From NCBI GenBank assembly GCA_021324735.1, contig JAJPIO010000010.1:1-47748 (forward strand): a stretch of 47,748 nucleotides of DNA. Reading direction: 5' to 3'. The notes below the pieces were generated by a model. That model made no database searches and was not told the DNA's origin. It was given only the letters and a program-made list of their open reading frames with translations. The DNA is from Bacteroidota bacterium (GTDB lineage: Bacteria; Bacteroidota; Ignavibacteria; Palsa-1295). Numbering within the stretch: the first letter of the stretch is position 1; each line of letters begins with the position of its first letter. Positions 1,492 to 38,504 of the stretch are shown piece by piece. The translations under genes and the position numbers were made by a program.

Positions 1492-1512
1492 GCGGGTTGC
1501 GTTTTGGTAAAT

Positions 1513-1676
1513 TGTTCTTTCTCGGAGTCGCTGGACTCTTTCGCTTAAGGGCGCCTGGTTCTTGTGACCGGCAACAACGTGATGTCATCGGATGTCGTGT
1601 TGCCGGATGTTTTAGAACGTGTGGCTGTCTTCGATCGTCAGGGCCTGGTCTCTCCTCAATCTCTTTAAGGAAAAAA
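1513..1676 (+). promoter_or_regulatory. Structured 5' leader of the giant surface-protein gene
   Basis: The leader contains, in order, TGTTCTTTCTCG (1513-1524), a small hairpin GAGTC/GACTC (1525-1538), CTTAAGGGCGCC (1544-1555) and a strong hairpin. The strong hairpin is CCGGCAACAACG (1568-1579) paired with CGTGTTGCCGG (1596-1606), with one bulged A. A similar order of elements occurs in the leader at 8629. The function is unknown; mRNA stability or translational control are possibilities. Confidence 0.35.
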
Positions 1677-4600: not shown

Positions 4601-6953
4601 CAATGCGAATGCCGTGTTCAAGAACGGTACGTACAACAATCCGGCCTGGATCACCTCGCTGGCTGGATCGAAAATTTCGGGTCCGGTTGCAAATGCGACC
4701 AACGCTACAAATGCAACGAACGCCACGAATGCAACGAACGCCACGAATGCGACCAACGCCACGAATGCGACCAACGCTACAAATGCGACCAACGCCACGA
4801 ATGCTGCAAACCTGACGGGTACCAACCTGACGGGCGACGTGACGAATAATGGCGATGCGATGACCATTGCGAATAATTCGCAGGCCGGACAGGACATTGC
4901 GAATGCGCTCACGACCTGGGGTGGTACGCTGACGAACAATACGTCCGGCAACGCAGCTACGGCGACGACGGCTACGAACGCCACGACTGCAACGACGGCG
5001 AATAATCTCGCCTCGACCGCTACGGTGAACGCGAACCAGATCACGGGCACGCTCTCCGCGAGCAATATTCCGGATTTGGGTGGAAGCTATATCAAGAACA
5101 GCACCTCGCAACAGACGGCGAACTTTAACATCAGTGGTAATGGCACGATGGGTGGTACGCTCACGGCGGGCGGCCTGAGTGTGACCGGACCGGGTAACAT
5201 CAGTGGTAATACGAGCGGTGTATTGTTAACCGTAAGCAACAGCAGCACCGGTCTGAATGCCGCGAGCGTGAAGGCGACGACCTCCAGCGGATGGGGACTC
5301 CTCGCCACCGAATCGAACGGCGGCGTTGCCATCGAAGGTGATGCCAACGGAACGGGTGGCGCGTTCGAGGCCGCCATTCTCGGCCGCTCGAGCGCTGCGC
5401 CTGCTTTCGAGGCCATGGCATCCGGAACTGCGGCGGCTATGCTCATCCATAATTCCGGAACCGGCTATGATATTTATAGCGGCCCGAATGGAAACAGCCA
5501 TAATTGGTATATCACCAACACCGGAGGAGCGGACTTCGCAAACCTTACCGTGGAGGGGAACGGCGTTGTGAACGGTCAATTTTCCAATGCAACACCGACT
5601 TCGAGCACGAACGTCATCGGCAGTAACGCCGAAGGCGAGAGCGGCCAGAGCATGCAGTGGGGGGTAACCCAGCGCGGCTATGCCGTCGGCATCTGGAATG
5701 CCTACGATCCTGGAACGACCGCCGGTAATTATGGTGGCGGTATGATCGTAAAAGTAAAGAGTACCAATTCGGGTCTTCGCGCCTTCGAAGTGGCTCAGGG
5801 CAGCACGGCTTCCGGCGCCGCCACGACGCTTCTCGGCGTTCAGGCCGATGGTACGCTCCTTACAACGCTCCCGACCGGCCTCGTACATAGCACGAGCGGT
5901 GTCCTTTCGAGCGCGGCGCTTTCCGCTTCGGACGTTGCAGCGGCCGGTACGCTTTCGAACAACACAACGGGTAATGCTGCGACCGCCACCACCGCGAGCA
6001 ACCTTGCGAGCAGCGCTACCGTGAATGCGAACCAGCTCACTGGTACGATCGCTTCCAGTAACCTTCCGGGTGCGGGTGGCGACCTTTCCGGCACGCTCAC
6101 CAATGCTGTGGTCGCAGGAATCCAGGGAGTGGCAGTTTCTTCCACGGCGCCAACCACGAACCAGTACCTGAAGTACAACGGCTCGGCGTGGGTACCGGCA
6201 ACGCTTACAGTTACCGGACTTACCAATCCGATGACCACCAAAGGGGACATGATCTACTCCTCGGATAACACGGGCACTGCGGCGCGCCTCGGTATCGGTT
6301 CGACCGGTCAGGTCCTTACCGTTGATGCGACAGGCGTTCCGGTGTGGTCCAGCAGTTTACCGGCCGTGACGAGCGTTTCAACCGGTACAATCACGGCTAA
6401 TTCGGGTTCGACGCTCAATATCAATAACTCGAACACAACGGCTGGAACTACGGCAATTAACATCAATAATACCGGCACTGGCAACATCAATCTTGCTGGC
6501 GGTGGGGGTGTAGTGATGATCAATGGTGGCTTTAGCTTGCATAAGTTAGTCATTAGCAATTCGGGAAGTTCGGTCACAACCTATACTGTTGATAATAGCG
6601 GAAGCTCATTGCCAAGAGATATGTTTATTGAGGTTGATGCTTCGGCTGCCGGATCTGCGACCCACAATTCAACGTCCACGACAAATGGGGATGTTGTAGT
6701 CCAGCTTCCCTCCGCATCTTCTGTGCCAGGACGCGTTATTTTCTTGGCGGCGAAAAGCCACTTATCAACCTGGACAACGGGCAGCAGGCCTGCCGGTGCG
6801 AATTACATCTTTGTAAGCCCCGCATCTGGTGAGACTATTTCGGGTAGTACCACGACCTTAAATTCTGGTCTCTTAAATACCAATGCCGCTGGTAATACGA
6901 TTACGCTTGTCAGTGATGGCACAAGCAACTGGTATATCATGGCCAGCCACTAA
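1677..6953 (+). CDS. Giant secreted NAT-repeat protein with tail-fibre-like modules
   Basis: The protein has 1758 residues from ATG 1677, preceded by TTTAAGGA. This start is preferred over an upstream in-frame ATG (1497) because it begins a clear signal peptide (MKLRTIAAMATMGLIVFAG, cleavage near GRAQQ). Residues ~35-145 form a 'LSYQGVLLDAQG...' module typical of secreted FCB-group proteins. The body repeats SNNTTGNAATAT about ten times, with runs of Asn-Ala-Thr triplets. Two longer modules each occur twice (LTGNISESQVN to VTVSHA, and TGDVTNNGDA to GGTLTNNTSG). A more complex region follows (about 5100-5900), then a tail-fibre-like segment (NPMTTKGDMIYSS) and a C-terminal domain ending NWYIMASH. 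The C-terminal ~140 residues are encoded by AT-richer DNA. A stiff, fibrous surface protein is inferred; no enzyme motif is seen and the partner is unknown. Confidence 0.85.
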   Translation: MKLRTIAAMATMGLIVFAGTGRAQQALTASHDVPHQLSYQGVLLDAQGLPASDGVQHLTLRLYADQNGETPVWEDSFDATVKSGVFSVMLGSQKPLPEVTKLSSNLYLGVTIGDGAELRPLSSLSSSPYALNVANGAITKEKMGTDYVGSISINGQQVTGKGGSLNLVTGNGIEATYDAATNSLALASTASLQNNTKGATAQDDDENDPHGNHEGGVGNSNHWWSHIFVDSIYNGLSAGVIHSVGASYAFKSGPVALGTEVSGTLPIANGGTGATTASGALANLLPSQSGNSGKVLTTNGTTASWQTPSSSSSSVAFNNVTNGTNANALVIGSGGSLSATGTGTITATNLAAGSTLTAAQIATAGTLSNNTTGNAATATNATNATNATNATNATIATTANNLASTATVNANQIVGTLSNNTTGNAATATTATNATTATTANNLASTATVNANQIVGTLSNNTTGNAATATNATTAANLTGNISESQVNGLSSDLSGKLSKSLNDGNIFVGNSSNVATGVAMSGDATITDAGVVTVSHAASANNATNATNATNATNATNATHATNADNATNATHATNADNATNATNATTATTANNLAGTATINANQITGTLSNNTTGNAATATNATNATNAANLTGTNLTGDVTNNGDATTIANNSQAGHDIANALTTWGGTLTNNTSGNAATATTATTANNLASTATVNANQITGTLSNNTTGNAATATTANSLSNTASVPASQITGTVSNSQLANNSITINTASPLSGGGTVALGGSLSLSLGTVSAANGGTGLSASTGTQFLRGDGSGGWTQGAIASGDLPSTISSNTTGNAATATTATTANNLAGTATINANQITGTLSNNTTGNAATATTAANLTGNISESQVNNLTSDLNGKLSNSLTDGDIFVGNSSNVATGVAMSGDATITDAGVVTVSHATNADNSTNATNATSATTAANLTGNISESQVNGLTSDLSSINSSLTSINANAVFKNGTYNNPAWITSLAGSKISGPVANATNATNATNATNATNATNATNATNATNATNATNATNAANLTGTNLTGDVTNNGDAMTIANNSQAGQDIANALTTWGGTLTNNTSGNAATATTATNATTATTANNLASTATVNANQITGTLSASNIPDLGGSYIKNSTSQQTANFNISGNGTMGGTLTAGGLSVTGPGNISGNTSGVLLTVSNSSTGLNAASVKATTSSGWGLLATESNGGVAIEGDANGTGGAFEAAILGRSSAAPAFEAMASGTAAAMLIHNSGTGYDIYSGPNGNSHNWYITNTGGADFANLTVEGNGVVNGQFSNATPTSSTNVIGSNAEGESGQSMQWGVTQRGYAVGIWNAYDPGTTAGNYGGGMIVKVKSTNSGLRAFEVAQGSTASGAATTLLGVQADGTLLTTLPTGLVHSTSGVLSSAALSASDVAAAGTLSNNTTGNAATATTASNLASSATVNANQLTGTIASSNLPGAGGDLSGTLTNAVVAGIQGVAVSSTAPTTNQYLKYNGSAWVPATLTVTGLTNPMTTKGDMIYSSDNTGTAARLGIGSTGQVLTVDATGVPVWSSSLPAVTSVSTGTITANSGSTLNINNSNTTAGTTAININNTGTGNINLAGGGGVVMINGGFSLHKLVISNSGSSVTTYTVDNSGSSLPRDMFIEVDASAAGSATHNSTSTTNGDVVVQLPSASSVPGRVIFLAAKSHLSTWTTGSRPAGANYIFVSPASGETISGSTTTLNSGLLNTNAAGNTITLVSDGTSNWYIMASH
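2770..5060 (+). repeat. In-gene repeat tract (NNTTGNAATAT modules and NAT arrays)
   Basis: The tract codes for repeated SNNTTGNAATAT modules and Asn-Ala-Thr arrays near 2812-2860, 3304-3440 and 4692-4799. Long module copies lie at about 3108-3293 and 4278-4463 (NISESQVN module), and at about 3571-3740 and 4810-4980 (NLTGDVTNNGD module). Synonymous sites differ between most copies, so much of the repetition is at protein level. The 4692 array is an exception (see next feature). Confidence 0.9.
4692..4799 (+). repeat. 18-bp tandem array, 6 units (12 NAT triplets)
   Basis: Twelve Asn-Ala-Thr triplets use AAT and AAC for Asn in strict alternation, giving six 18-bp units. Units 1 and 5 are AATGCGACCAACGCTACA, units 2 and 3 are AATGCAACGAACGCCACG, and units 4 and 6 are AATGCGACCAACGCCACG. 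The unit length is a multiple of three, so gain or loss of units keeps the frame. Confidence 0.9.
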
Positions 6954-7043: not shown

Positions 7044-7408
7044 GTGTACTGGCGATCTCCGGATCGCCAGCGAGTGGGGCGGGGTGGCTCCCGTGTACTG
7101 GCGATTTCCGGATCGCCAGTTCGTGCGGGTAAGTAGACTCCATCGGTTGTGCACTCTCGCGAGGTTCTCGCGATCAGAGATCGCGAGTACACACGTCCTG
7201 GTGTACTGGCGATCTCCGGATCGCCAGTTCGTGGGGGTAAGTAGACTCCACCGGTAGTGGCACCCTCGCGGGGTCTCGCGATCAGAGATCGCGAGTACAC
7301 ACACGTCCTCGTGTACTGGCGATCTCCGGATCGCCAGTTCGTGGGGGAGTAGACTGCACCAGTTGTGGCACCCTCACGGAGTTCTCGCGATCAGAGAGCG
7401 TGAGTACA
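7044..7408. repeat. Left REP/BIME-like cluster (7 units)
   Basis: Type A units consist of the tag GTGTA, a 9-bp stem CTGGCGATC/GATCGCCAG and the loop TCCG. They start at 7044, 7093 (one mismatch), 7201 and 7311. Type B units are the same design in inverted orientation (CTCGCGATC-AGA-GATCGCGAG followed by TACAC), at 7167, 7275 and, degenerate, 7384. Spacers share GTAGACTCCACCGGT- and GTGGCACCCTCGCGG-like text, and the A-to-A or B-to-B period is about 110 bp. Confidence 0.92.
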
Positions 7409-7434
7409 ACGCGAGACACCGGGCGTGCGCACCC

Positions 7435-8085
7435 CTACGCTGGTTCTTCGAAGCCGTAGTAATCGGGTGAGAGGTAGGTCCCGGGCCACTTCCGCCATTC
7501 GGTTACCAATCCAGCTTTTACCGGATTCATCAGCACATACCAAACGGCATTACCCAACCTTCCTTCGCGCACGACGTGATCGTACGTTTCCGCCTTCCAG
7601 AAATGTCCTCTTTGTTTGAGCATTCGATTAATTCGCAACGCCGTATACTTTTTATGCTCTTGCATGATACGAAACAGCGGCCTTGAATCAAGGCAATCAA
7701 AAACGGCGTGGACATGATTCGGCATAATACTATAAGCATGGATATAGATCGCACGTCCATTGAGATTAGCGAGCGACTCCATTACAATATTCCGAATTCT
7801 CTCTTCAGCCAGGTGATAGGGACCATTTCGATGCAGCACCTGCTCATACTCACGAAAATGATCGGCTTTTTCTTTTTCCGTTTTAGCGGTGCGCCACAAC
7901 TCGAGCAATCGTTTCGCTTCGGATTTTGGCACGGAGCCATGCAGTCGATATGTAACGAAATACGGCGCATCCTTTGGATCGAAGTGCGGTAGTCGGTGAC
8001 GATAAAAATAGTAGGGATTCGATTCCACCGAATCAATAGGGATCGAATCGGACAAAACCGAATCGGAACAGGGAGAAAGGACCAT
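7435..8085 (-). CDS. REP-associated tyrosine transposase (RAYT, Y1_Tnp family)
   Basis: The protein has 216 residues. It carries the HUH-type single-strand nuclease signature: the His-Val-His metal site in SIMPNHVHAVF (H124, H126) and a candidate catalytic tyrosine in AETYDHVVR (Y168). It also has the family's N-terminal HFDPKDAPYFVTYRL and the late AVWYVLMNPVKAGLV motif. Members (TnpA_REP, PF01797-like) bind and nick REP hairpins and are usually single-copy domesticated elements without terminal repeats of their own. Here the gene sits between two clusters of REP-like palindromes, fitting that role. Its DNA is AT-richer than the flanking repeats. The start at 8085 has only a poorly placed GGGG upstream; later starts are possible. 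All expected motifs are present, so it is probably intact. Confidence 0.9.
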   Translation of the reverse strand: MVLSPCSDSVLSDSIPIDSVESNPYYFYRHRLPHFDPKDAPYFVTYRLHGSVPKSEAKRLLELWRTAKTEKEKADHFREYEQVLHRNGPYHLAEERIRNIVMESLANLNGRAIYIHAYSIMPNHVHAVFDCLDSRPLFRIMQEHKKYTALRINRMLKQRGHFWKAETYDHVVREGRLGNAVWYVLMNPVKAGLVTEWRKWPGTYLSPDYYGFEEPA

Positions 8086-8126
8086 CCCCTAAAATACGAA
8101 TCTCAAGATACCCTCCGGCGAACTTT

Positions 8127-8483
8127 GTGTACCGGTGATCTCTGATCGCCGGTCGTGGGGTGGGGCACACTCCACCCGTGTGGCACCCTCGCGGGGTTCT
8201 CGCGATCAGAGATCGCGAGTACACACGGGGTCGTGTACTGGCGATCTCCGGATCGCCAGTGCGTGGGGTGGGGTGGCTCCCGTGTACTGGTGATCTCCAG
8301 ATCGCCAGTTCGTGGGGCGGAGCACACTCCACCCGTGTGGCACCCCGGCGGGTTCTCGCGATCAGAGATCGCGAGTACACACGTCCTCGTGTACTGGCGA
8401 TCTCCGGATCGCCAGTTCGTGGGGACGAGCACACTCCACCGGTCGCCCTCACGAGTTCTCGCGATCAGAGATCGCGAGTACAC
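8127..8483. repeat. Right REP/BIME-like cluster (7 units)
   Basis: Type A units start at 8127 (divergent: CCGGTGATC-TCT-GATCGCCGG stem), 8233, 8282 (variant) and 8389. Inverted type B units start at 8199, 8355 and 8458. The order from 8233 (A, A, B, A, B at offsets 0, 49, 122, 156, 225) matches the order from 7044 in the left cluster (0, 49, 123, 157, 231), so the two clusters share a directly repeated block of about 250 bp. Confidence 0.92.
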
Positions 8484-8610
8484 CGGTTCGCAAATTTTTG
8501 GAGATCCGGGAACTCGGTATTATTCATGAAATTACAACGCAAAACACAAACATAATTTCTGAAATCGCTTGCTAAAAGAATAAAAATGTAGGAAGGTGCC
8601 AAATTCTTCT

Positions 8611-10661: not shown

Positions 10662-13600
10662 CTACCAAACAAACGGCGTCCAGATCAACTTGCCGAGGAA
10701 GAACGGCTGCTGCGTTAGTGTCGATGCGGTAGTACTTTGTTGATTCAGGTGTAACTGAATTTCGAGCAGCATGTTGCGACTCGCATTTCCGGGCATGAAC
10801 GTGTTGAACGGAATATCGGTAATAAAGGCTGCTTGCTGGCCCGTATTATTGTTGCCTACGGGTAATTCTGTTTTGAATGTGATGTTCCTGTAAGCAGCCG
10901 TGAGCTGCACTCCCTGACCGACCTGATACGTAGCAGAACGGATCGCGAACGCCGAACCGGATGAGCCGAGATAGTTACTTAAGAAATCGCTAAAGAGCTG
11001 GCTGCTTAAAGTAGAACCTGCTTGAGCAAGTACTTTTTGAGCTTGAGCGTCATTAGCCTCATTCTTAAAATATCCGCCGGTTGTAAGGAAGTAAATAGCG
11101 TCTTCCAATGCCTGATCGGAGGTTTCGGGACGCTGGACAAAATCTCCGGTCGCTCCGCTTTCGTAGACGCGAGCCGTCAGTAACGGATTTGACTTTGTAC
11201 CTGTGAGTTGTAATTCGATCTTTGCCTGTTGCTGATCGTATTGGTTTGTGCCGATATAATCGGCGGTAACATTGATCTCAGGGTTACTAAAATCATTTGT
11301 AAAGCGAATTCTTCCATCCGTAATATTAAACGTTTGATAGAACCGGAAAGAAGAATTCGGACTAAGGTCGAAGCCGCCGGTTGCAGTCGTTTGCAGGTTT
11401 TCACCACGTTCTAATTGTAAGCTGCCTCCGCTTTTTAATTCGGCTTTTAGCTGTGTACCCAACACCCCAAGGGCTCCGCTGAAGGGTATTGTTATTGTCG
11501 CATCGCCTTGAGTGTTAATGCGAAGATCCATTTGAAGGCGATCAGTAAAGGAAGTGGTGTTTGCGGTACCACTGCCTGCCGGCGTTGTGCCTGTTGTATC
11601 ATGCGAAAGAGCCGTCCCATCATCATTATAATAGATCTCTTTCATGTTATTAGGAAAGAGAGTGTCGTCGATCATGCTAAGGCGAATAGAGCCGGCCTCC
11701 CGTTCGAGCTTTGTGCGCTCTGTTTCTGTATAGGCCCGTCGTGCTCGCCTTAGGTTCTCGATCGAATCATTGGGCAGCGTCTCATAGATAATGTCACCAC
11801 CGGTCACGTTCTGGTTTGTTCCTCCGGTTTGCGGCATGATGACATTGGCGCTGACGATATTGATGGTGCCCCTAATGATTGGGTTCTGGAATGTATTATA
11901 GAAGTGAAAATCTTCTCCATCGGTATTGATCGTGACCGGACCATAAACTGTACCGAGCGATTCGCGGGCAGCGTTCGTGAGGACCATCAGGCGATCGGAG
12001 TGAAGGCGAAGATCGAAGTTGGTTATGTTGAAGCCTTGAAAATCGAGATTACCATTCAATGTGGCCATTCCATTAGGGTCATCGGCATCCACGTTGCGAA
12101 TCGTAAGGTTTTGCAGCTTGAGGGAATTGTCTGCAAATGTGAGGGGACCGGCTACCCGATACCACATGTTGGTCGATGCAAGCAGGAATGCTGCATCATT
12201 GATCGTTGCCTGACCGGTATATTGAACATTCTGGCGAGTACCGGTCACGGCAAAGTGAATATCTCCTGTCCCTTCGATCTTACTGAATGGCGGTATGAAC
12301 GGCGTAGCAACATCCAGCGGAAATTGGCTGGCATTGATGCTTGCGGATAGAGGACGTACGACCGCCGCTGCACTGTCTTGTTCGTAGGTTGGGCCGCGCT
12401 TCAATGCAATGGTCATCGGGATGCTATCGATCGTAGCCCGCAATTCGCTTCCACGGATCGTGCTCCCATTTTGCGCCATGCCAGTAACATTGGCGACATG
12501 AACGATCAAGCTTCCCCTCAAGGCCTGATCGCGATAGCTAATATCGACTGCATTAGAGTCGAAACTGATCTGACCTGATTGGTCATCGCCGTAGGTTAGC
12601 GAGTCGGCAAATAGCTTGGCTGTGATCTCGGGGCGCTCGAGTGTACCACTCAAGGTGCCGCGAACGTCGCGGACCTTGCCATTGAATTTTGCAAATCCAA
12701 ATGTTTTTGCGTTCGCTCGGAACGGAAGAATTCGTGGAAGTTGGTCCAACTGAAACGACGGAACTTCAACCCACGCATTTACACTGTCTCCTTGAAGAGT
12801 GCCACCCAGGCTCATACGCTGCATCGCCGAGTTGGCGCCATTCATCAGGGGATGGATAATATTAAGCGTATCGATCGTAAGGCGACCCGCTTTGGTCCAT
12901 ATGACATGACTTGGGTCTTCATTCATCCATATATACTGTCGTAGTCCCTCCCCCGAAGGATTATCGTATACGAACCGTAATGTATCGAAGATAAAGTCGA
13001 AGTCGCCATTGGGGAAGTGGGCAGTCCCTTTCACCTTGGCGCCGATCGAATTATTGTATTGAGTAGATACACCAAAGTTGAGCACCTGATTTTGGTACAC
13101 AAATTCTGCTTTAGGATGCTCGAAAAATGCCGATCCCAAACGGACAACTGAATCCGTCATAAAATCCAGAGCAGCATCTAAATGACCGAGGACTTTTTTC
13201 GGATCGTTCGATAGATTGTGTGCCACCAATCTAAAGGTAGTTGGCGTCACATGGACTCTTGGAATTCCCTGCCCAAATTGGGGAAGAGCCATTGGGGAAT
13301 GAGTTGAATCTTTACGAACGAGGCGTGCCGTATCAAAATGTGATACGGAATCACGGTGTGCAAGTACGAGGGAAGGTGTCTTGGAATTGGTATCTACAAC
13401 TGTAGATATAGAGTCTGCTAATAAGTCGGAATCTGGAATAATAGCAAGAGAGCTATCGATCGAGATTCTGTTTCGCAAGATCAGACCGAGGCTATCACCA
13501 TTGATGGTAATATCCATATCTCCATTAGGACAACCGCTCACCGATCCAGAAATTACTCCTTCTCCCAGGAGGAATGTTCGAGGCAGGAAATCGGCCAAAG

Positions 13601-15797
13601 GTCTCAAGTCCTTTATGGTGACTTTATAATTAAAGTCAGCAGAATCGGAACAAGTACGGATAACAGGATACTGTTCACCAGCTACAGGAAAGTCGCGTTG
13701 TTCAATTGCGGTAATAAGAGCATTTACATGTTCGGGAACAGCATGAATCAGATCGCCAAGGCGGAAACGATGTTGAACGGATACATCCGCCATCTGACTA
13801 TTTATAGTAAGCGCATTATCACCGGATCGCGTTGGGGCGAGAGTGGCGTCAGCGATCACATCCTGCATTGGATGTCCTTTGTATTCCAGATCGAAGAGTC
13901 GGGCGTGGAGTGTGCCAGTCAAGTCCTCAAAGTTTTTCGCTGTGCCTGCGACTTTCGCGTCGAGATCGACACGCGAAGGATTCGCAGAATTTTTTCCCAT
14001 CACTTCTGCTAATCGAAAGTCTTTGACGGTGCCATCGAACCGGAAGGGAATAGAAGGCGCAACCAAGTTAGCCGAGGCGCTTCGAACATGAACTTCTGGC
14101 CCACCTTGCACAACTGCATCCAAGTGATCGGTAGTAAGCGTGCCACTTTTCATTGAACCTGCCAAGTCCAAAGAATTGACGTGGTACTTTCCAAAAAAAG
14201 ATGGAGCAGTTTCTTTTAAAGTTATATCGGTTGTAAGAGTCTTCCAATTGGTACCAGTACCGGCCAGTTTAGCATCGGTGCTAATAGAGCTTTCAAACTC
14301 CGGCTTTTTTATCAGTGCAGCAATATTGAAGTTCTGTGTTTTAAGGTCGGCCGTATATTTAAATTGATGATTGTGAAGGTTCAACATTACGTCCGCGGTG
14401 ATATTACCTGCACCGCTCGACTTGGCGTCAAAGATCGTGTGGAAATTAAGAGGCTCGCCAGTATACGTTAGACTACCAATGTTAATATTGCCGAACCGGC
14501 TCAGGTCAGGAAGATGCAAGCCGGGGACATAGTCATTGAGGGTAGCATTAGAAAGATTGCGTCCCTGCAATTTAATATCCATCGTAAGAGAATCGGTATG
14601 ATGGAGATTGCTGAGGTCACCGGCAATTAGGATGTTGCCTCGATTTTTAAAATCGAGAGCAAGACGTTTTACATGGAGCTTACCAAATTCACCGTTCGTT
14701 TCCAGATCGATTCCAGGTGACCCAGCTAAGAATCCAAGCGGCTTTGGTAGAAACTGCTTTAATTCATATGTGCTGATGACCGGTCCATTCATCGAAACTT
14801 TCACGGAGGAATGTTGAAGCGAAGTAAAGAGGCCGGTCTTTACAATGCTTGGGGGAGCAAGTTCAACGGAAAAACCAACATCCGAATGGCCTGTTGTGAT
14901 CTTGGCGTCGTCCATTCGAGCCTGGATAGAATCGACGTAGCCGGAGAACTCGAGGTGCTGAACGAAGAATCCGCTCTGCTTTTCTGTAAAGCGAAGATGA
15001 CTCACCCGTGCTGATTGGGCCGAAGATCCGTGTGCATAAAATCGTGAATCGAGATCGATGCCTTGAACCTGGATATCCGCCCAGTCAATGTCACTTTCTT
15101 TTACTTGAGCAGCGAATTCGTGAAGCTGCGAAGGTGCTTGCCTGCTCGGTGCAGCACCGGTTACGATGGCGGTTTGCCGTGCCGGGAAATTATAGTTACG
15201 TACATAAAGCTCGCCATTGAGGATACGGAAGCTTGCTAGGTCCAGTATCTGGGTAAATGGTGTGGGTGGCGGCTTATTCGCCGTTGGAACCGGCTTTGTA
15301 AGCAGGCTATAATTCCAAACCGTATCTCCAGCAAACTTTACAAATCGAACGACCGGATGCTCCAGGACCATGCTCGTAATTCCGAACTCGTTCTTCCGCA
15401 GCCATCTAATGAGGGAATATTTTGCGAGAATATGATCGGCATGGAGGAAGGTGACAGAGTCGTACGCGGTGTTGGTCTTTAACTTCAAGGTAACATCGTT
15501 CATCACGAAGCCTTGAAGAAGATTGCCCTTAACTTCCTTAATGATCAGAGTCCCGTTCGTACCTTTTTCAACAGCGCTAACAAGTTCGTTAATAACAAGC
15601 CGCTTAAAGACAGGAAGTTGGATGAACAGAACCCCGGCAAACCCAATAAGAATAAGAAGAAGTAAAAGCCAAGCAGCAACCTGACGAGTGCGTCTCCAAA
15701 CCACGCTCTTCGTCTTTACGACGTGCGGTTTTGCATCGCCATGGACAGGCGGTGTTTGGCCGTTATCATTTGTCGATTGTGGCTCTATGTTCTCCAT
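10662..15797 (-). CDS. tamB: TamB-family translocation/assembly module protein
   Basis: The protein has 1711 residues, longer than E. coli TamB (about 1260). A cytoplasmic N-terminus rich in polar residues is followed by one membrane segment (~38-60, AAWLLLLLILIGFAGVLFIQ). A long AsmA/TamB-like beta-helical region of repeated short strands follows (for example NLLQGFVMNDVTLKL). The C-terminal TamB domain (old DUF490) has hallmark segments such as DLRINTQGDATITIPFSGAL, SSFRFYQTFNITDGRIRFTN and NPEINVTADYIGT. TamB-family proteins span the periplasm and are thought to carry lipids or help outer-membrane protein assembly, often with a BamA-like partner; none is visible here. The gene lies downstream of rfaE1-rfaE2 with a 278-base gap, so it may have its own promoter. 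Confidence 0.92.
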   Translation of the reverse strand: MENIEPQSTNDNGQTPPVHGDAKPHVVKTKSVVWRRTRQVAAWLLLLLILIGFAGVLFIQLPVFKRLVINELVSAVEKGTNGTLIIKEVKGNLLQGFVMNDVTLKLKTNTAYDSVTFLHADHILAKYSLIRWLRKNEFGITSMVLEHPVVRFVKFAGDTVWNYSLLTKPVPTANKPPPTPFTQILDLASFRILNGELYVRNYNFPARQTAIVTGAAPSRQAPSQLHEFAAQVKESDIDWADIQVQGIDLDSRFYAHGSSAQSARVSHLRFTEKQSGFFVQHLEFSGYVDSIQARMDDAKITTGHSDVGFSVELAPPSIVKTGLFTSLQHSSVKVSMNGPVISTYELKQFLPKPLGFLAGSPGIDLETNGEFGKLHVKRLALDFKNRGNILIAGDLSNLHHTDSLTMDIKLQGRNLSNATLNDYVPGLHLPDLSRFGNINIGSLTYTGEPLNFHTIFDAKSSGAGNITADVMLNLHNHQFKYTADLKTQNFNIAALIKKPEFESSISTDAKLAGTGTNWKTLTTDITLKETAPSFFGKYHVNSLDLAGSMKSGTLTTDHLDAVVQGGPEVHVRSASANLVAPSIPFRFDGTVKDFRLAEVMGKNSANPSRVDLDAKVAGTAKNFEDLTGTLHARLFDLEYKGHPMQDVIADATLAPTRSGDNALTINSQMADVSVQHRFRLGDLIHAVPEHVNALITAIEQRDFPVAGEQYPVIRTCSDSADFNYKVTIKDLRPLADFLPRTFLLGEGVISGSVSGCPNGDMDITINGDSLGLILRNRISIDSSLAIIPDSDLLADSISTVVDTNSKTPSLVLAHRDSVSHFDTARLVRKDSTHSPMALPQFGQGIPRVHVTPTTFRLVAHNLSNDPKKVLGHLDAALDFMTDSVVRLGSAFFEHPKAEFVYQNQVLNFGVSTQYNNSIGAKVKGTAHFPNGDFDFIFDTLRFVYDNPSGEGLRQYIWMNEDPSHVIWTKAGRLTIDTLNIIHPLMNGANSAMQRMSLGGTLQGDSVNAWVEVPSFQLDQLPRILPFRANAKTFGFAKFNGKVRDVRGTLSGTLERPEITAKLFADSLTYGDDQSGQISFDSNAVDISYRDQALRGSLIVHVANVTGMAQNGSTIRGSELRATIDSIPMTIALKRGPTYEQDSAAAVVRPLSASINASQFPLDVATPFIPPFSKIEGTGDIHFAVTGTRQNVQYTGQATINDAAFLLASTNMWYRVAGPLTFADNSLKLQNLTIRNVDADDPNGMATLNGNLDFQGFNITNFDLRLHSDRLMVLTNAARESLGTVYGPVTINTDGEDFHFYNTFQNPIIRGTINIVSANVIMPQTGGTNQNVTGGDIIYETLPNDSIENLRRARRAYTETERTKLEREAGSIRLSMIDDTLFPNNMKEIYYNDDGTALSHDTTGTTPAGSGTANTTSFTDRLQMDLRINTQGDATITIPFSGALGVLGTQLKAELKSGGSLQLERGENLQTTATGGFDLSPNSSFRFYQTFNITDGRIRFTNDFSNPEINVTADYIGTNQYDQQQAKIELQLTGTKSNPLLTARVYESGATGDFVQRPETSDQALEDAIYFLTTGGYFKNEANDAQAQKVLAQAGSTLSSQLFSDFLSNYLGSSGSAFAIRSATYQVGQGVQLTAAYRNITFKTELPVGNNNTGQQAAFITDIPFNTFMPGNASRNMLLEIQLHLNQQSTTASTLTQQPFFLGKLIWTPFVW

Positions 15798-30887: not shown

Positions 30888-32081
30888 ATGGTATACGTTG
30901 CGGTTTTTAGTATAGCATTACTGTTATATGCTTTTTTCGGTTTTCCGATGATCATCGGATTGTTAGCCAAAGCACGTCCTCGACGTTGGAAAAGGGATGA
31001 TACCTATCAGCCTCGGGTATCCATTGTTCTTCCAATCTATAATGAAGAACTGATTTTAAGGCAATGCCTTTCGGCTATTATTACTCAAAATTATCCTTCT
31101 GATAAGGTCGAAATCCTGTGCGGCTCGGACGGTTCGACCGACCAGACGAACGCAATCCTTGAAGATTTTAGCAGCCAATACTCCAATCTTCGTCCTTTCT
31201 TTTTTCCAAACCGAAGGGGAAAAATGATGGTGATGAATGATCTTGTTCGAGAGGCGCAAAATGAGATCCTTTTTTTTACGGACGCCGACGTTGTGTTAGG
31301 TCCGGATTGGATACGTTATCATGTTTCTAACTACGTCGATTCCGAAGTGGGTGGCGTAACAGGTCCCTTGCGTTTTGAAACTGAAAGAAAAGACGGTACA
31401 ACCTTGTCTGAGGCTGGCTTTCTTGAAATGGAATGTCAGCTTCGTCGGAACGAAGCGTTGATCTATTCTTCAACTGGTTTTTATGGTTGTAATTGGTCGA
31501 TGAGAAGAGAGAACTGGAAGGATTTGCCCAGCCAGACTACCTGTGATGATCTCTACGAGTACTTGGCTGTTATTGATAAAGGCAAGAGGTTGGTTTATGA
31601 CGAGCGTGCAATTGCTACCGAGATCTATGGACGAAGCTATCAAGATGAGTTCTCTCGCAAAACTCGGTATGCCGCACGAAGCCTCGACGCTGTAAGCCAC
31701 TTCCCTCAATTGTTATTTCGCTGGCCGGCCGCCGCATTTTTATGGCCTCGTAAAATGCTGCGATGGTTAACCTTTGTCCCGATTACTGTTTTAATTACTG
31801 CAATAACAATGGGGGTGTTTCGACACGAGTCATGGAGTTATGTTTTTGCTACAATTGGAATAGTGAGTCTTTCTCTTGTCTTTGTAGGTTGGCTTGGTCG
31901 CAATCTTAAACACAACATACCGATTGCGAGCCAATTATTCTGGTTTACACAGATGAATATTGCATTTCTTCGTGGTGTTTATGAATTCCTGTTTTCAAGG
32001 CAATCCGCATTGTGGCCGCAAACGACTCGATACGCTGGTTCTCCTTCGGCAGTAATTTCTGATCAGAAAACATTATCGTGA
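30888..32081 (+). CDS. Membrane-bound family 2 glycosyltransferase
   Basis: The protein has 397 residues. One N-terminal membrane helix (VAVFSIALLLYAFFGFPMII) precedes a GT-A domain with RVSIVLPIYNEELILRQCL, ILCGSDGSTDQTNAIL and the metal-binding FFTDADVVLGPDW. TTCDDLYEYLAV and SRKTRYAARSL follow in the positions of the D-x-D/E-D-x-x-L and Q/R-x-x-R-W-like motifs of processive or polytopic GT2 enzymes. Three or four C-terminal helices follow. It is related to the N-acetylglucosaminyltransferase-like inner-membrane group; whether it is processive is not clear. The stop overlaps the GTG start of the next gene (GTGA). Confidence 0.87.
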   Translation: MVYVAVFSIALLLYAFFGFPMIIGLLAKARPRRWKRDDTYQPRVSIVLPIYNEELILRQCLSAIITQNYPSDKVEILCGSDGSTDQTNAILEDFSSQYSNLRPFFFPNRRGKMMVMNDLVREAQNEILFFTDADVVLGPDWIRYHVSNYVDSEVGGVTGPLRFETERKDGTTLSEAGFLEMECQLRRNEALIYSSTGFYGCNWSMRRENWKDLPSQTTCDDLYEYLAVIDKGKRLVYDERAIATEIYGRSYQDEFSRKTRYAARSLDAVSHFPQLLFRWPAAAFLWPRKMLRWLTFVPITVLITAITMGVFRHESWSYVFATIGIVSLSLVFVGWLGRNLKHNIPIASQLFWFTQMNIAFLRGVYEFLFSRQSALWPQTTRYAGSPSAVISDQKTLS

Positions 32082-33544
32082 CCCAGCGTAAGGAACTCCT
32101 GCTTCTCTTGCTCGGCGATTTTATCGCGTTGAACGTGGCATGGCTCGCGTTTTATTGGCTGCGCGTGGATTCAGGTTGGTTTGTCTTCCATCATGGTCCG
32201 ACCGATCTCAGCCCCGATCAATTACCATCCTCTGCATTCTATCTCTATGTTTTTTGGATGGTGCTGTTCGTGTTTTTTGGTCTTTATCGTCCTTGGTATG
32301 TCCGCGCACCGTTCGATGAGATCGTTACCATCTTGAAGACGCTTGGGGTGGGTACGATTCTTATATCGCTTATTATTTGGTGGGATCCAACACATACTGG
32401 AAGTCAGGTTTCGAATGATCCGCGAGTGCTAGGGGTGACATACTGGGGGGTAACTTCCATCTTCTGTGTGGGAGTAAGATCACTTATTCGGTATGCACAG
32501 CGAAGATTGCTGGAGTCTGGTGTCGGCACCCGACCCTCCATTATTATTGGTGACCCTACTAATGCTAAGTCCTTAGCTGCTCGTGTCGTTAATTATCCGC
32601 GATTAGGATATGATGTGATCGGCTACGTAAGCCCAAACGGAGAAGCGAATATCCCAGTAAATATCACGCTTGAACAGCATAATGGTAGGGCAATGGAAGC
32701 GAAAAAAGTGATTCCTCGCCTGGGTTCTATCCACGAACTGGAGTCGGTTATCGATCAGCATCAGGTCAAGGAAGTGCTGATCACTTTGGGGTCAAATGAG
32801 CATGATAAACTCATGGAAGTGATTTCACGGGGTGCGAAGTCCAACGCTGGACTTAAAATCGTACCGGATCTCTATGATATTGTTTCCGGTCAGGCTCGAA
32901 CCCGCGAAATTTATGGCTTCCCGCTTATTGATATTAATCCTGTACTTTTACGCCCGTGGGAAGAAGCTGCAAAGCGTACTCTCGACATTATCGTGAGTTT
33001 TCTCGGATTAGTACTCGGCAGCCCCTTTTGGCTGATCGTTATTCTTGCGGTGCGTTTGACATCAAAAGGACCACTGATCTATTCTCAAGAGCGCCTGGGA
33101 AAAGATGGTAAGCTCTTTCGAATTTATAAATTCCGCTCAATGTATGTTAATGCGGAAGAGCGCGGTCCGCAATGGGCCTTGAAAAATGATCCTCGGGTTA
33201 CTCCTGTTGGCAGATTTATACGAAAATCGCACCTGGATGAGGTACCCCAGCTTTGGAACGTGCTGAAAGGGGATATGTCACTTGTCGGCCCCCGTCCCGA
33301 GCGAGAATTTTTTGTAAAGCAACTTATTCACGAAATTCCGTACTATACGCGTCGGCTGAAAGTACGTCCGGGAGTCACCGGATTATATCAGACTGTCGTT
33401 CATAAGTATGACGAAAACATTGACGATGTACGACAAAAAGTTAAATATGATCTCATGTACATCGAGTCAATGTCATTTCGGTTGGATCTTAAGATCTTGA
33501 TCCGCACGCTATACATGATGATCCGCGGCAAAGGGCAGGCGTAA
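32078..33544 (+). CDS. Undecaprenyl-phosphate glycosyl-1-phosphate transferase (WbaP/WcaJ-like)
   Basis: The protein has 488 residues from GTG 32078, overlapping the upstream stop by 4 bases. It has four N-terminal helices, then a CoA-binding_3-like Rossmann region ([20 protein letters not shown] ... [12 protein letters not shown]). The C-terminal bacterial sugar-transferase domain has a re-entrant helix ([20 protein letters not shown]), [15 protein letters not shown], the catalytic Asp-Glu in [27 protein letters not shown] and RPGVTGLYQ. It transfers sugar-1-phosphate to undecaprenyl phosphate, the first membrane step of repeat-unit synthesis. All catalytic motifs are intact, in contrast to the degenerate homologous domain in the gene at 35452. 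Confidence 0.93.
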
Positions 33545-33548
33545 TTCT

Positions 33549-34697
33549 TTGACTTATAAATTCACCACAGTGAGCTTAGATACTCTTTCAAAACCCATTC
33601 AAATGGTCGATGTACTCGGCCAATATTATCGCTATCAAGAGGAGATCGACAACGCGGTTCTGGAGGTCGTTCGAAGCGGTAAGTACATTAACGGTCCTTA
33701 TGTACAGCGCTTTGAAAAAGCCATGCAGGACTACCTTGGAGTAAGACATGCGATCGCGTGTGCTTCAGGTACAGATGCTTTGCAGCTCACCCTTATGGCT
33801 ATCGATGTTAAGCCTGGCGATGAGATCATTACAACACCGTTTACTTTCGCCGCAACGACTGAGACGATTGCATTGCTGGGAGCTACTCCAATTTATGTAG
33901 ATATTGATCCCAATACATTCAATATCGATGTCGAGCAGATAGAAGAGAAAATTACATCGCGCACTCGTGCAATTTTACCAGTGCATCTTTTTGGGCAGCC
34001 GGTAAATATGACTCGCATAAACGAGATCGCAAGGAAGCATAGGCTTATTGTGATTGAAGATGCGGCGCAAGCCGTTGGGGCAAAGTGGGAAGGTAAAATG
34101 GCTTGCTCGATCGGTGATATGGCCGCTATTTCATTCTATCCTTCGAAAAATCTCGGAGCGTTTGGCGATGGTGGAATGGTCACAACAAATGACGATAAAT
34201 TGGCCCATGTAATTAGAACGATTGCAAATCATGGTTCGGAGCGCGCATACTATCACGATCGGCTTGGAGTAAATTCACGGCTCGATGCAATTCAAGCTGC
34301 TATTCTGAATGTTAAATTGCCGTATTTAGACGAGTGGAATGCTACTCGTGTAGCAGCGGCAGCTACGTATTCAGAAATATTTGCTGCACATTCGGAACAT
34401 ATTAGTATTCCAAAAGTTGATCCTCATGCTGAACCGATCTGGCACCAATATTCAATTATATTGAAGAAGGGTCGCGAGCCCGTTATCGCATATCTGAAGG
34501 CCGCTGGAATTCCACATAATATTTATTATCCGGTACCGCTACATCTTCAGAAAGCTTACGCTCAAGGCAAAAAAGGAGATTTTCCTCACACTGAGTTTGC
34601 TGCTGAGCACATTTTGTCGTTACCAATTCACTCTGAGATAACGAGCACTGAAGCGGAGTTTATAGCAGGTCATGTATTGGAAGCATTAGGTCTGTAA
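33549..34697 (+). CDS. DegT/DnrJ/EryC1-family nucleotide-sugar aminotransferase
   Basis: The protein has 382 residues from TTG 33549. ATG 33603 (inside PIQMVDVLGQY) is a possible later start, but the family usually has residues before MVD, so TTG is kept with moderate certainty. It is a PLP enzyme: the internal aldimine Lys200 is in SFYPSKNLGAFGDGGM, with ACASGTDALQLTLMA, TPFTFAATTETIALLGATP, VHLFGQP and VIEDAAQAVGA. It aminates a keto-sugar nucleotide at C3 or C4. The closest functional idea is a WbpE-like C3 transamination, given the WbpA/WbpI-like pair at the start of the locus, but substrates cannot be read from sequence. Confidence 0.9.
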   Translation: MTYKFTTVSLDTLSKPIQMVDVLGQYYRYQEEIDNAVLEVVRSGKYINGPYVQRFEKAMQDYLGVRHAIACASGTDALQLTLMAIDVKPGDEIITTPFTFAATTETIALLGATPIYVDIDPNTFNIDVEQIEEKITSRTRAILPVHLFGQPVNMTRINEIARKHRLIVIEDAAQAVGAKWEGKMACSIGDMAAISFYPSKNLGAFGDGGMVTTNDDKLAHVIRTIANHGSERAYYHDRLGVNSRLDAIQAAILNVKLPYLDEWNATRVAAAATYSEIFAAHSEHISIPKVDPHAEPIWHQYSIILKKGREPVIAYLKAAGIPHNIYYPVPLHLQKAYAQGKKGDFPHTEFAAEHILSLPIHSEITSTEAEFIAGHVLEALGL

Positions 34698-34702
34698 CCC
34701 CA

Positions 34703-35446
34703 ATGTCCCGAGCATTAATTATTATACCGACCTATAACGAGCGAGACAATATTGTTCGGCTCGTTCATTTGATCTTCGATCAACAGACACTCTGTTCCGA
34801 TACAGAGCTGCACGTCCTGGTGGTGGACGATAATTCACCAGATGGTACTTCCACAGTGGTTGCCGATCTGCAGGCGAAAGAAGATCCAGACCATAAGCGA
34901 ATTCATTTGCTGACACGTCCAGGTAAAATGGGGCTGGGTACCGCTTATGTGGCCGGGTTCAAATATGGTCTCAAGGAAGGCTTTGATTATCTCTTTGAGA
35001 TGGATGCGGATTTTTCTCACGATCCCAAGGAAATTTCCACTTTTCTTCGAGAGATCAAAAACTATGATCTCGTTATAGGCTCGCGATACATTCCAGGGGC
35101 TCGTGTCGATAACTGGCCCCGTCGACGCTTATTATTGTCTTATAATGCTAATGTTTATGCCCGTCTTGTGACCGGTATTCCGGTTCGCGATGCTACAGGC
35201 GGTTTTAAGTGTTTTCGACGCAACGTCTTAGAAGCGATCGATCTCGAGGATATTCGTTCGAATGGATATGCTTTCCAGATCGAGATGAATTTTCGCGCGT
35301 GGCGCAAAGGATTTCGTATTAAAGAAATTCCGATCACGTTTGTCGATCGTCATGCTGGCACAAGCAAGATGAGTAAGGCTATTGTACGGGAAGCCGTAGG
35401 AATGGTCTGGAAGTTGAAGGCTCGGGCTGTCGCGGGAGAGCTATAG
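34703..35446 (+). CDS. Polyprenol-phosphate mannosyl/glycosyltransferase (DPM1-like)
   Basis: The protein has 247 residues, a short soluble DPM1-type GT2. Motifs are ALIIIPTYNERDNIVRLV, LVVDDNSPDGTSTVV, the donor/metal site FEMDADFSHDPKEI, LVIGSRYIPGARVDNW, DATGGFKCFRRNVLE and EIPITFVDRHAGTSKM. It forms polyprenyl-phosphate-linked mannose (or glucose) from the GDP- or UDP-sugar at the cytoplasmic face. That product is normally consumed by GT-C transferases outside the membrane. No intact GT-C gene is present in this window, but a decayed GT-C-like frame lies at 29.2-29.6 kb. It starts five bases after the aminotransferase stop. Confidence 0.9.
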   Translation: MSRALIIIPTYNERDNIVRLVHLIFDQQTLCSDTELHVLVVDDNSPDGTSTVVADLQAKEDPDHKRIHLLTRPGKMGLGTAYVAGFKYGLKEGFDYLFEMDADFSHDPKEISTFLREIKNYDLVIGSRYIPGARVDNWPRRRLLLSYNANVYARLVTGIPVRDATGGFKCFRRNVLEAIDLEDIRSNGYAFQIEMNFRAWRKGFRIKEIPITFVDRHAGTSKMSKAIVREAVGMVWKLKARAVAGEL

Positions 35447-35451
35447 CCCTT

Positions 35452-37470
35452 ATGGACATTTCCGTCATAATCGTTAGCTATAATGTCAAGGAATTCCTTC
35501 GCGGTGCAATAGCCAGTGTGAGGCGTTCTTTTGATGTTGGCAATCTCACTGGAGAGATCCTCGTCGTCGATAATGACTCGTCTGATGGCAGTGCTGAAAT
35601 GGTCGCTGCGGAATTTCCAGATGTCCGATTATTTGCTCTGAACGAGAATCTCGGTTTTGGTCGTGCTAACAATTTAGCATTGCGCGAGGCAAAAGGAGAT
35701 TACTTGTTGCTGCTTAATCCCGATACGATCGTTGCGGAGGATACGCTTCGAACGATGGTGGATTTCATGCGAGATCATCCAGATGCGGGCTTGGCAGGTT
35801 GTAAGCTACTAAATGGTGACGGTACATTCCAGCGACCGTGTCGTCGCGGTTTTCCTACCCCCTGGGCGAGCTTCACCAAACTCTTTGGCTTAGCCGCTCT
35901 CTTTCCGAATTCAAAACTTTTCGCCCGCTATCATTTAACATATTTGTCGATTGACGCCACTTATGAGGTCGATGCACTTTCGGGTGCGTTTATGATGCTA
36001 TCCCGAAAGGCATGGGAGAGTACACGTGGTTTCGACGAAGCCTTTTTTATGTATGGCGAGGATCTGGATCTGTGCTATCGTATAAAGGAGGCCGGATTAA
36101 AAGTCTATTATGTCCACTCGACGGCTACGGTGCACTTCCAAGGTGAATCTACGCGACGAAGCACAATCAATGAAGTAGCGGTCTTTTATGATGCCATGCA
36201 CGTCTTTGTGAAGAAGCATTATCGTGCATCAATCATCTTTAGCTTGCTGCTCCGGTTAGGAATTTTCTTGCGAGGAAAGCTCGCCGTAGTTCGAAAATAC
36301 CGGAGCTCGTTTGCACTTGCTGCGCTGGATTACCTTATGCTTGTTTTCAGCGTTCTTATTGGCTCATTCATATTGCTTGGTAGTTGGATGGGATTACCTG
36401 AAAAAGATTATCCGTCCGCCCTGATTTTCCCGCCGCTTGTTTCCTGTATTCTGCTCTATCTGCTCAAAGCCTATCATTCAAGCAGCCGCTGGAGTGTCCG
36501 GCCAGTGTTGATAGCCATTCCTGCTATGCTTGTCGGGCTTTCCTCCCTTACGTACTTCTTCAAAGAATTTACGGCGAGCCGTCAATTCGTCGTGGTGGTT
36601 ACCGTCATTGCGGGATTTCTGCTTTTAGCAGATAGACTCTTTCTGAGAATATTACGCCGCTCGTTCGGTATCGGCTCATCAGCTTCTCCTTTTCTTCGAC
36701 CTACACTTATTGTGGGCACCGATAAGGAAGCGGTTCGCATTGCAACATTGCTAAAACGGATGGAATTTTTACGCCGCTATCAGGTCGTCGGTTTTATCGA
36801 TAATACTTTGGAGCGGGTTGGACTGCATTTATCGCCAGGTATTCCGATCCTGGGTGACGTTCGGACGATTGCCAAAGTAGCTCGAGACAGGAAAATCTCT
36901 GAAATAATATTCGCTAATTCATCTTTAGCGTATATCGACGTTCTTGGAATCATGCAACGAACGTCCGAAAGCCTGCCCATCCGTGTTAATTTTTCGATGG
37001 TGCCAGTTGCATCGGATATTTTGATCGGCCGTGAAAAGATCGAGTTACTTACCGATGATTCCGGTGATTCATTGGCTTTGGTTTCCGTAGAGAATAATCT
37101 GGGCCGTTTATCTCATCGTTTTTCAAAGAGAGTGTTCGATCTGGCGGTCAGCAGTGCAATGCTACCATTTGTTGCTCTCGCAGCCGCAATAATGCCGAGC
37201 AATGAACGAGTCACGCAATTAAGGCTATGGGGAAGTGTGTTTCGAGGTGAGCGGACCTTGGTGGGTGTCGAAGATGCTCGTGAACGTGAAGTTTATTACG
37301 CAAAAGAAGGGTTTACAAGCCTTGCGGCTGTTACCGCCGGCAGTGAGTGGCGTGATGAAGATATCCGCCAATTCGACCGCTACTATGCTCGCAACCATAG
37401 TTTAGGGATGGACTGCGAAATTTTATTGAAAGCCGTGTTTGTCCGTCGGAATGCCAAACGCGGACACTAA
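35452..37470 (+). CDS. GT2 glycosyltransferase fused to degenerate glycosylphosphotransferase
   Basis: The protein has 672 residues in two parts. Residues 1-~235 are a rhamnosyltransferase-like GT2 domain ([70 protein letters not shown]). Residues ~290-400 hold four membrane helices. Residues ~415-540 form a CoA-binding_3-like Rossmann segment ([16 protein letters not shown] ... YQVVGFID). Residues ~553-664 align with a sugar-transferase domain ([18 protein letters not shown], then [19 protein letters not shown], then [20 protein letters not shown]). Compared with the gene at 32078, the KFRSM and LDEVPQ catalytic region is missing and VGPRPE is replaced by VGVEDA. The C-terminal part is therefore probably inactive as a transferase and may anchor or scaffold the GT2 domain. 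It is the last gene of the polysaccharide locus. Confidence 0.85.
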
Positions 37471-37481
37471 TAACTTCTGGA

Positions 37482-38504
37482 ATGGCAAAAACCGTATTAG
37501 ATTTTGAAAAGCCACTCGAAGACCTCGAAAATAAATACGAGGAAATGCGGCAGCTCTCAGAGACCGTTAACTTGACGAGTGAGTTGGCGGCTTTAAGGAC
37601 GCAAATTGAAGAGCTTCGCCAAGAGATATATCAGAATTTAACCCGTTGGCAGCGCGTACAATTGGCCCGTCATCCGGAGCGGCCATATTCTCTCGATTAT
37701 ATACAGGCTCTTTCTCCGGATTTTATCGAACTTCATGGAGATCGTTCGGTTCGAGACGATCCGGCGATCGTTGGTGGTTTTGGTACACTCGAAGGTATTG
37801 GCAGCGTCATGTGGATCGGCCATCAAAAAGGTCGTGATACGAAACAAAATGTTTATCGGAATTTCGGAATGCCGAATCCGGAAGGGTATCGCAAAGCGTT
37901 GCGGTTGATGAAGCTAGCAGAAAAATTTCGTAAACCGGTCGTTACACTTCTCGATACACCTGGCGCTTTCCCGGGTATTGAAGCTGAAGAGCGCGGACAA
38001 GCAGAAGCGATCGCACGCAATTTGTTTGAGATGGCGAGGCTGGAAGTGCCGATCGTGGTTGTTATTATTGGCGAGGGCGCTTCGGGCGGCGCCCTTGGTA
38101 TAGGTGTTGGCGACCGGATCCTAATGTTGGAAAATGCCTGGTATAGCGTTATTTCACCGGAAAGTTGTTCTTCCATTTTATGGCGTAGCTGGAATTTTAA
38201 GGAACAGGCGGCCGAGGCGCTAAAACTTACAGCAACAGACTTGCTTTCGGTCGGTATTATCGATCGCATTATTCCTGAGCCACTTGGCGGTGCTCATCGC
38301 TCACCAGACGTTATGCTCAATACTCTTCGAGAAATATTGGTCGAAGAGTTAAAGTCGTTACTCGAAGTCTCAAAATTTGAGACAACGACGGCACTTGCTA
38401 GGCGCTCTGAAAAATTTTCACGTATGGGAATGTGGAGCGAGAACTCGGATAATCTTCAAGCGCAATTTATAGACGACGTGGCGGTCGTGCAAGCTGCCAA
38501 ATAA
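37482..38504 (+). CDS. accA: Acetyl-CoA carboxylase carboxyltransferase subunit alpha
   Basis: The protein has 340 residues, slightly above the usual ~320. An N-terminal helical segment ([17 protein letters not shown]) is followed by [32 protein letters not shown] and [69 protein letters not shown] and [13 protein letters not shown] come next; these are the hallmark motifs. It transfers the carboxyl group from carboxybiotin to acetyl-CoA together with AccD, committing carbon to fatty acid synthesis. accD is not in the window. It is 11 bases after the last polysaccharide gene and begins the housekeeping group. Confidence 0.97.

Follow-up and report, generated by a model that had tools for sequence, protein, structure and literature searches.

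Among the large monotopic phosphoglycosyl transferases (PGTs), WbaP is known to be a homodimer held together by its DUF, a domain that binds uridine nucleotides (PMC10942596). The same paper names a class of Bi-PGTs, in which an active PGT is fused to another enzyme, and reports that PglF-like UDP-sugar dehydratases share N-terminal domains with the large PGTs, so that this platform had already been joined to other enzymes (PMC10942596). Our literature search found no description of a pseudo-PGT fusion, while an earlier mention may exist. The product of fpgA of Flavobacterium psychrophilum, considered as a possible known case, was discarded, being a 319-residue family 2 glycosyltransferase (GT2) and not a fusion (PMC4293000).

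The window, that is, the whole stretch of 47,748 nucleotides analysed here (contig JAJPIO010000010.1 of the Ignavibacteria assembly GCA_021324735.1), carries at 35452..37470 (+ strand) an open reading frame of 672 amino acids that encodes a GT2 enzyme joined to a pseudo-PGT. Its GT2 catalytic domain (residues 1-240, 35452..36171, +) is followed by a four-helix membrane bundle with a preceding helix (residues 268-410, 36253..36681, +), delimited from the secondary structure of the model and from conservation relative to active PGTs, by a Rossmann-like DUF (PF13727, residues 411-545, 36682..37086, +), recognized by Pfam, by models and by structural matching, and by a pseudo sugar-transferase domain (residues 553-665, 37108..37446, +), defined by Pfam, profile alignment and motif comparison. 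The helix bundle, PF13727 and a PF02397-like fold thus occur in the order found in large PGTs.

Elsewhere in the window, an IS200-like Y1 transposase frame (7435-8085, - strand; PF01797, E = 2e-7) had palindromic REP-like repeats on either side (7310-7415 and 8126-8485), and the region 7300-8555 as a whole resembles a RAYT/REP arrangement. A protein of 1818 residues rich in NAT/NATNAT-type repeats (1497-6953) had no Pfam match, and a TamB-like protein of 1711 amino acids was encoded at 10662-15797 (-; PF04357, E = 3e-18).

Pfam alone would read the fusion gene mainly as a family 2 glycosyltransferase. Glycos_transf_2 (PF00535) matched residues 4-138 with an E value of 9e-25, and the residues D40-N41, N89-P90-D91 and G202-E203-D204 were invariant across the fusion family, including the acidic D40, D91, E203 and D204 of the nucleotide- and metal-binding motifs of the GT-A fold. 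Since these motifs are invariant, the GT2 domain is presumably active. GT2 subfamily models of NCBIfam matched only below their cut-offs, among them the rhamnosyltransferase subfamily TIGR01556 (37.7 bits, cut-off 200.55). In the second half, CoA_binding_3 (PF13727) matched residues 349-507 above its cut-off (E = 1e-8). Bac_transf (PF02397) for its part matched residues 596-664 at profile positions 97-176 of 179 only, with an E value of 5e-5 and 23.3 bits, slightly below the curated cut-off of 27. TIGR03025, the model for exopolysaccharide polyprenyl glycosylphosphotransferases, gave an E value of 4e-31 and 108.6 bits, far below its cut-off of 295.

The preliminary description had recognized in the C-terminal half the complete architecture of the initiating transferase encoded from 32078 onwards. 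This architecture proved real but visible only with profiles, because BLASTP against that enzyme aligned the Rossmann part only (21% identity, E = 3e-5). With a family profile, hmmsearch found WbaP at an E value of 4e-34, and the alignment had a hole over the KFRSM...DE block. Structure prediction was in agreement with this result. The model of residues 268-672, built from 66 sequences, had a pLDDT of 89.8, and its best Foldseek match was WbaP (PDB 8t53, E = 2.9e-11). Alignment of the two with VIA-align gave a Z score of 13.3 over 334 residues with an rmsd of 15.7 A, a high value presumably due to shifted domains, so that the structural likeness to WbaP rests on the Z score, the sequence profile and the separate fit of PglC. 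The latter enzyme superposed with a Z score of 10.8 over 117 residues (285-401 of the model), and the predicted fold after residue 550 is thus PGT-like and not an unrelated one. Strands were predicted at about the position of the dimer hairpin of WbaP (residues 530-545), and in the model the dimer-forming elements of WbaP appear to be retained. In the full-length model (pLDDT 86.1), the best structural matches of the GT2 half were GT-A enzymes, which included the dTDP-rhamnose-using rhamnosyltransferase RmlT, though not specifically.

What distinguishes the pseudo-transferase domain from active enzymes is its catalytic region. The active large PGT of the window (32078..33544, +; PF02397, E = 1e-68; TIGR03025, 410.8 bits against the cut-off of 295) keeps KFRSM, LDEVPQ and VGPRPE intact. 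In the fusion protein, as the preliminary description had stated, the block from KFRSM to LDE is absent and VGPRPE has become VGVEDA, at residues 604-609. The deletion extends to the whole family. When 138 fusions were aligned jointly with 50 PGTs, the latter drawn nearly all from the same loci as the fusions, both residues of the Asp-Glu dyad (LDE.PQ) were found in 0/138 fusions and in 50/50 active PGTs, and KFR and PRP were likewise each absent from all 138 fusions and present in all 50 controls. The segment between KR..D and VG had a median length of 46.5 residues in the fusions versus 105 in the active PGTs. An alignment-free search for DE.P[QL] returned six matches in the fusions, none of which lay at the aligned dyad; they resemble the upstream linker 'DEVPLIEIEY'. 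KSB1 and some Neomarinimicrobiota have a longer remnant, with for example 'KLPYLWAILKGDVSFVG' at the place of the motif of the window's active enzyme, still without the dyad. Judged from these alignments, every catalytic motif is lost across the whole fusion family, and the deletion of the block is ancient and family-wide and no peculiarity of the window gene. Absence of the dyad, of KFRSM and of PRP rules out membership in the family of active monotopic PGTs (PF02397).

An assembly error, a frameshift or an internal deletion in the window's genome could in principle produce such a gene. Nevertheless, the same architecture occurs in independent genomes, and none of the other frames of 37001-37700 encodes the missing block; a sequencing error or frameshift is thereby ruled out, and we give an artefact of this kind practically no credence.

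The distribution of the fusion is wide. The C-terminal 406 residues matched 59 of 61 genomes, and the fusion was present in 58 of them, namely, in the window's genome and in 57 of its 60 relatives, normally once per genome; the 59th match (G020) is a 508-amino-acid frame of an ordinary transferase. A search of a wider collection found it in Ignavibacteria, Kryptonium, Bacteroidales, Flavobacteriales, Saprospiraceae, Hymenobacter, Rhodothermia, Neomarinimicrobiota, KSB1 and others. It was present in 71 of the 158 Bacteroidota genomes surveyed (37/39 in the window's class and 34/119 outside it), and several well-sampled Bacteroidota families in this survey lacked it. Among KSB1 it was found in 37 of 39 genomes, one of them with a partial frame, and among Neomarinimicrobiota in 23 of 26. 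The TA06/WOR-3 phylum yielded a single fusion in 40 genomes, for which transfer or a binning error is possible, and the matches in a Desulfobulbaceae (L111) and a Saccharospirillaceae (L149) metagenome bin, both perhaps mislabelled, were left out of any claim of proteobacterial spread. The viral collection gave a match at the level of the GT2 domain only.

In a tree, the fusions formed one clade separate from the active PGTs with a support of 99, the root not being inferred. Because of this single clade, one origin of the fusion, with loss of the dyad before the group spread, is the simplest explanation. Going by sequence, the C-terminal 400 residues most likely descend from a WbaP-type large monotopic PGT whose catalytic block was lost before the FCB lineages diverged. 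In agreement with such a descent, D293, Y341, R377, R395, G422, G599, V604-G605, G620, Y645 and D654 are common to fusions and active PGTs; the helix bundle keeps D293, Y341, S376-R377 and R395, and the Rossmann domain keeps G422, G447 and G468. The KR..D...Pro signature of the monotopic reentrant helix, whose topology is a prediction, is also kept (K559 in 131/138, R560 in 127/138, D563 in 133/138 and P572 in 123/138), and in the window's pseudo-transferase domain the KRxFD start of the membrane helix with Pro572 is accompanied by the C-terminal G620, Y645 and D654.

In seven of the eight close pairs compared, the dN/dS ratio of the dead domain lay at 0.06-0.17, and for the remaining pair it was undefined; the values are rough because dS was high and near saturation in the pairs used. 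These ratios point to purifying selection on the dead domain and, together with the breadth of occurrence, rule out recent pseudogenization. It could still be that the helix bundle alone matters, as a membrane anchor, while the transferase remnant slowly decays. In the dN/dS comparison, the remnant changes more quickly than the GT2 domain, and Calditrichota, like some Bacteroidota (for example, L203 and L204), have lost it completely. Neutral decay, however, would not be expected to give such low ratios, nor to leave K559, D563, P572, V604-G605, G620, Y645 and D654 near-invariant in most of the 138 sequences superphylum-wide, and we hold this explanation to be very unlikely. That the dead half is still useful follows from the once-per-genome upkeep of the fusion in a bacterial group of great age and breadth, and pseudoenzymes kept over so wide a span usually do real work.

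The usefulness of the dead domain has limits, as shown by relatives without it. The frames L144 8720-10405, L152 3700-5388, L202 2175-4028, L203 1869-3704 and L204 2473-4299 contain the GT2 domain and the helix bundle, plus the Rossmann domain in those scanned, with no recognizable PGT remnant; going by their domain content, they are natural deletions of the dead domain. Thirteen of 26 Calditrichota genomes were matched, only as far as the Rossmann domain, and the Pfam results for L144 and L202 of this phylum were consistent with the lack of any PGT remnant. Since Calditrichota and some Bacteroidota keep the GT2-membrane-Rossmann part without it, the dead domain is dispensable in places.

This pattern bears on a regulatory role, by analogy with WbaP, in which the Rossmann domain would bind a uridine nucleotide and act as a brake on the GT2 domain, the remaining dead transferase being a passive anchor. 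The DUF of WbaP is stabilized by UMP, UDP and UTP, the first of which also inhibits the enzyme (PMC10942596). The glycines G422, G447 and G468 are kept in the fusions, and Calditrichota drop the transferase part yet keep the Rossmann domain. On the other hand, the one Bacteroidia member scanned (L121) had no PF13727 match, nor any Pfam match in its second half, so the pocket may have drifted; we consider nucleotide sensing quite improbable as the main role.

In the window, the active PGT gene is followed on the same strand by a DegT-type sugar aminotransferase gene (33549..34697, +), kept between the PGT and DPM1 genes in many loci of the class, and by a gene for a DPM1-like GT2 of the polyprenyl-phosphate hexose synthase type (34703..35446, +), assigned from PF00535 and synteny with NCBIfam matches below cut-off. 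The DPM1-like gene is the most constant upstream neighbor of the fusion outside Bacteroidia and Rhodothermia. The gene downstream (37482..38504, +), identified as accA from its sequence, is the constant downstream neighbor outside Bacteroidia, a synteny traced by similarity to the window gene; it is metabolic and probably not part of the function of the fusion. Loci of the window's class conserve the order PGT-(DegT)-DPM1-fusion-accA, with DPM1 directly upstream of the fusion in 31 of 39 loci and accA downstream in 35 of 39.

An active PGT was located within 3.5 kb upstream of the fusion in 29 of 36 loci of the window's class and in 15 of 16 named Ignavibacteria-type loci, and a large PGT lay within 7 kb on either side in at least 43 of the 71 fusions of the phylum survey. 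Such proximity would be expected if the dead half paired with an active PGT in a mixed dimer, through the Rossmann hairpin and the bundle, and the GT2 domain added the second sugar beside the initiator, and retention in the model of the dimer-forming elements described for WbaP (PMC10942596) points the same way. Co-location, however, may merely reflect a shared operon, and the pairing breaks down in other groups: a PGT within 3.5 kb upstream was found in 0/26 Bacteroidia-type and 0/8 deeper-lineage loci and in none of the Rhodothermia-type loci. Apart from the fusion, genome G201 has a single PF02397 protein, a small PGT of 220 residues that has neither bundle nor DUF, and none was found in G200, both genomes being possibly incomplete. 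Nor is the enzyme encoded at 32078 the sole candidate partner in the window's own genome, since this genome has six intact PF02397 transferases (contigs C3, C6, C15 and C17). The scaffolding of the GT2 domain beside the initiator, as proposed in the preliminary description, therefore fits the window's class but, because the pairing is missing from other lineages and the PGT remnant from Calditrichota, does not stand as the general function, and as an explanation of the family we regard it as unlikely.

The neighborhoods of the deeper lineages differ. KSB1, Neomarinimicrobiota and Calditrichota show the order RmlD-DPM1-fusion-accA, with RmlD as the gene next upstream of the other three in 13 of the 20 KSB1 loci surveyed (L181-L200) and in ten deeper-lineage loci of another set (L098, L100, L106, L107, L122, L127, L144, L148, L152 and L155). 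The RmlD copy of L100 scored above the TIGR01214 rmlD cut-off. In L100 and L144, genes for a DUF4837 protein and an AIR carboxylase were observed farther upstream of RmlD. Adjacency of RmlD is confined to these lineages; in the window's own locus it is absent next to the fusion, and a PF04321 match (E = 3e-59) lies elsewhere in the genome. None of PGT, DPM1, RmlD and accA adjoins the fusion in Bacteroidia-type loci, and its surroundings in the two that were scanned are housekeeping genes, recR and purA among them. The rhamnosyltransferase-like character ascribed to the GT2 half in the preliminary description, and its fusion to a pseudo-transferase, were both upheld, the former being strengthened by the RmlD neighbors.

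Taken together, the data make it fairly probable that the protein is a membrane-anchored, L-rhamnosyltransferase-like GT2 acting at an early step on an undecaprenyl-linked glycan, with the dead PGT half as its anchor and probable dimerizer. The dead half is read as an anchor and assembly platform because it keeps the helix bundle, the DUF with its hairpin and the reentrant helix. The GT2 domain would add an early sugar to an undecaprenyl-linked intermediate, the four-helix bundle and the Rossmann domain would constitute a dimer-forming platform as in WbaP, and the retained reentrant helix would hold the GT2 domain at the cytoplasmic membrane face, on which the lipid-linked acceptor is located. 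In the window's class, this platform may also bring the GT2 domain near the active PGT encoded close by. The donor may be dTDP-L-rhamnose, as suggested for the deeper lineages by the RmlD gene that adjoins the module there, although RmlD may work for the DPM1-like enzyme or for a different gene. A broader reading, which we put forward tentatively and regard as rather doubtful, is that of an ancient, superphylum-wide class of glycosyltransferases in which a dead initiator serves as a dedicated membrane and assembly platform for a GT2 whose substrates are lipid-linked glycans; in some lineages it would dock onto the living initiator and channel the lipid-linked sugar. On this reading, envelope glycan assembly would make use of a conserved pseudoenzyme.

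The fusion offers a natural case for asking what holds the first membrane steps of glycan assembly together. If the proposed anchoring function is true, a single-copy gene set apart from its usual partners in Bacteroidia would gain a candidate function. Ready-made controls exist in lineages with a large remnant (KSB1 and some Neomarinimicrobiota), a small one (Ignavibacteria and Bacteroidia) or none (Calditrichota).

A close comparison is with WbaP and the large PGTs (TIGR03025, PF13727 plus PF02397; PDB 8t53), with which the fusion shares the bundle, the Rossmann DUF, KR..D with its Pro, VG, the C-terminal motifs and, as modelled, the fold; unlike them, it lacks the Asp-Glu dyad, KFRSM and PRP, has a catalytic domain about 60 residues shorter and carries a GT2 domain at its N terminus. 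With rhamnosyltransferase-like GT2 enzymes (TIGR01556, WbbL type) it has in common the GT2 fold, a shared motif type and RmlD neighbors in the deeper lineages, whereas those enzymes have no membrane platform and their model, with its cut-off of 200, gives the fusion a score of 37.7 bits. Active GT2-PGT fusions exist, so that the idea of such a fusion is already known: a Calditrichota frame (L201, 2217-4643) joins a GT2, of a type different from that of the pseudo family, to an intact large PGT with SLDEWPQL and VGPRPE. To our knowledge, no family-wide dead GT2-PGT fusion is known. PglF-like dehydratases have the platform before the dehydratase, whereas in the window protein it follows the GT2 domain. 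Like the Bi-PGTs, finally, the fusion unites a PGT module and another glycan enzyme in one chain, but in all members of its family the PGT half is dead.
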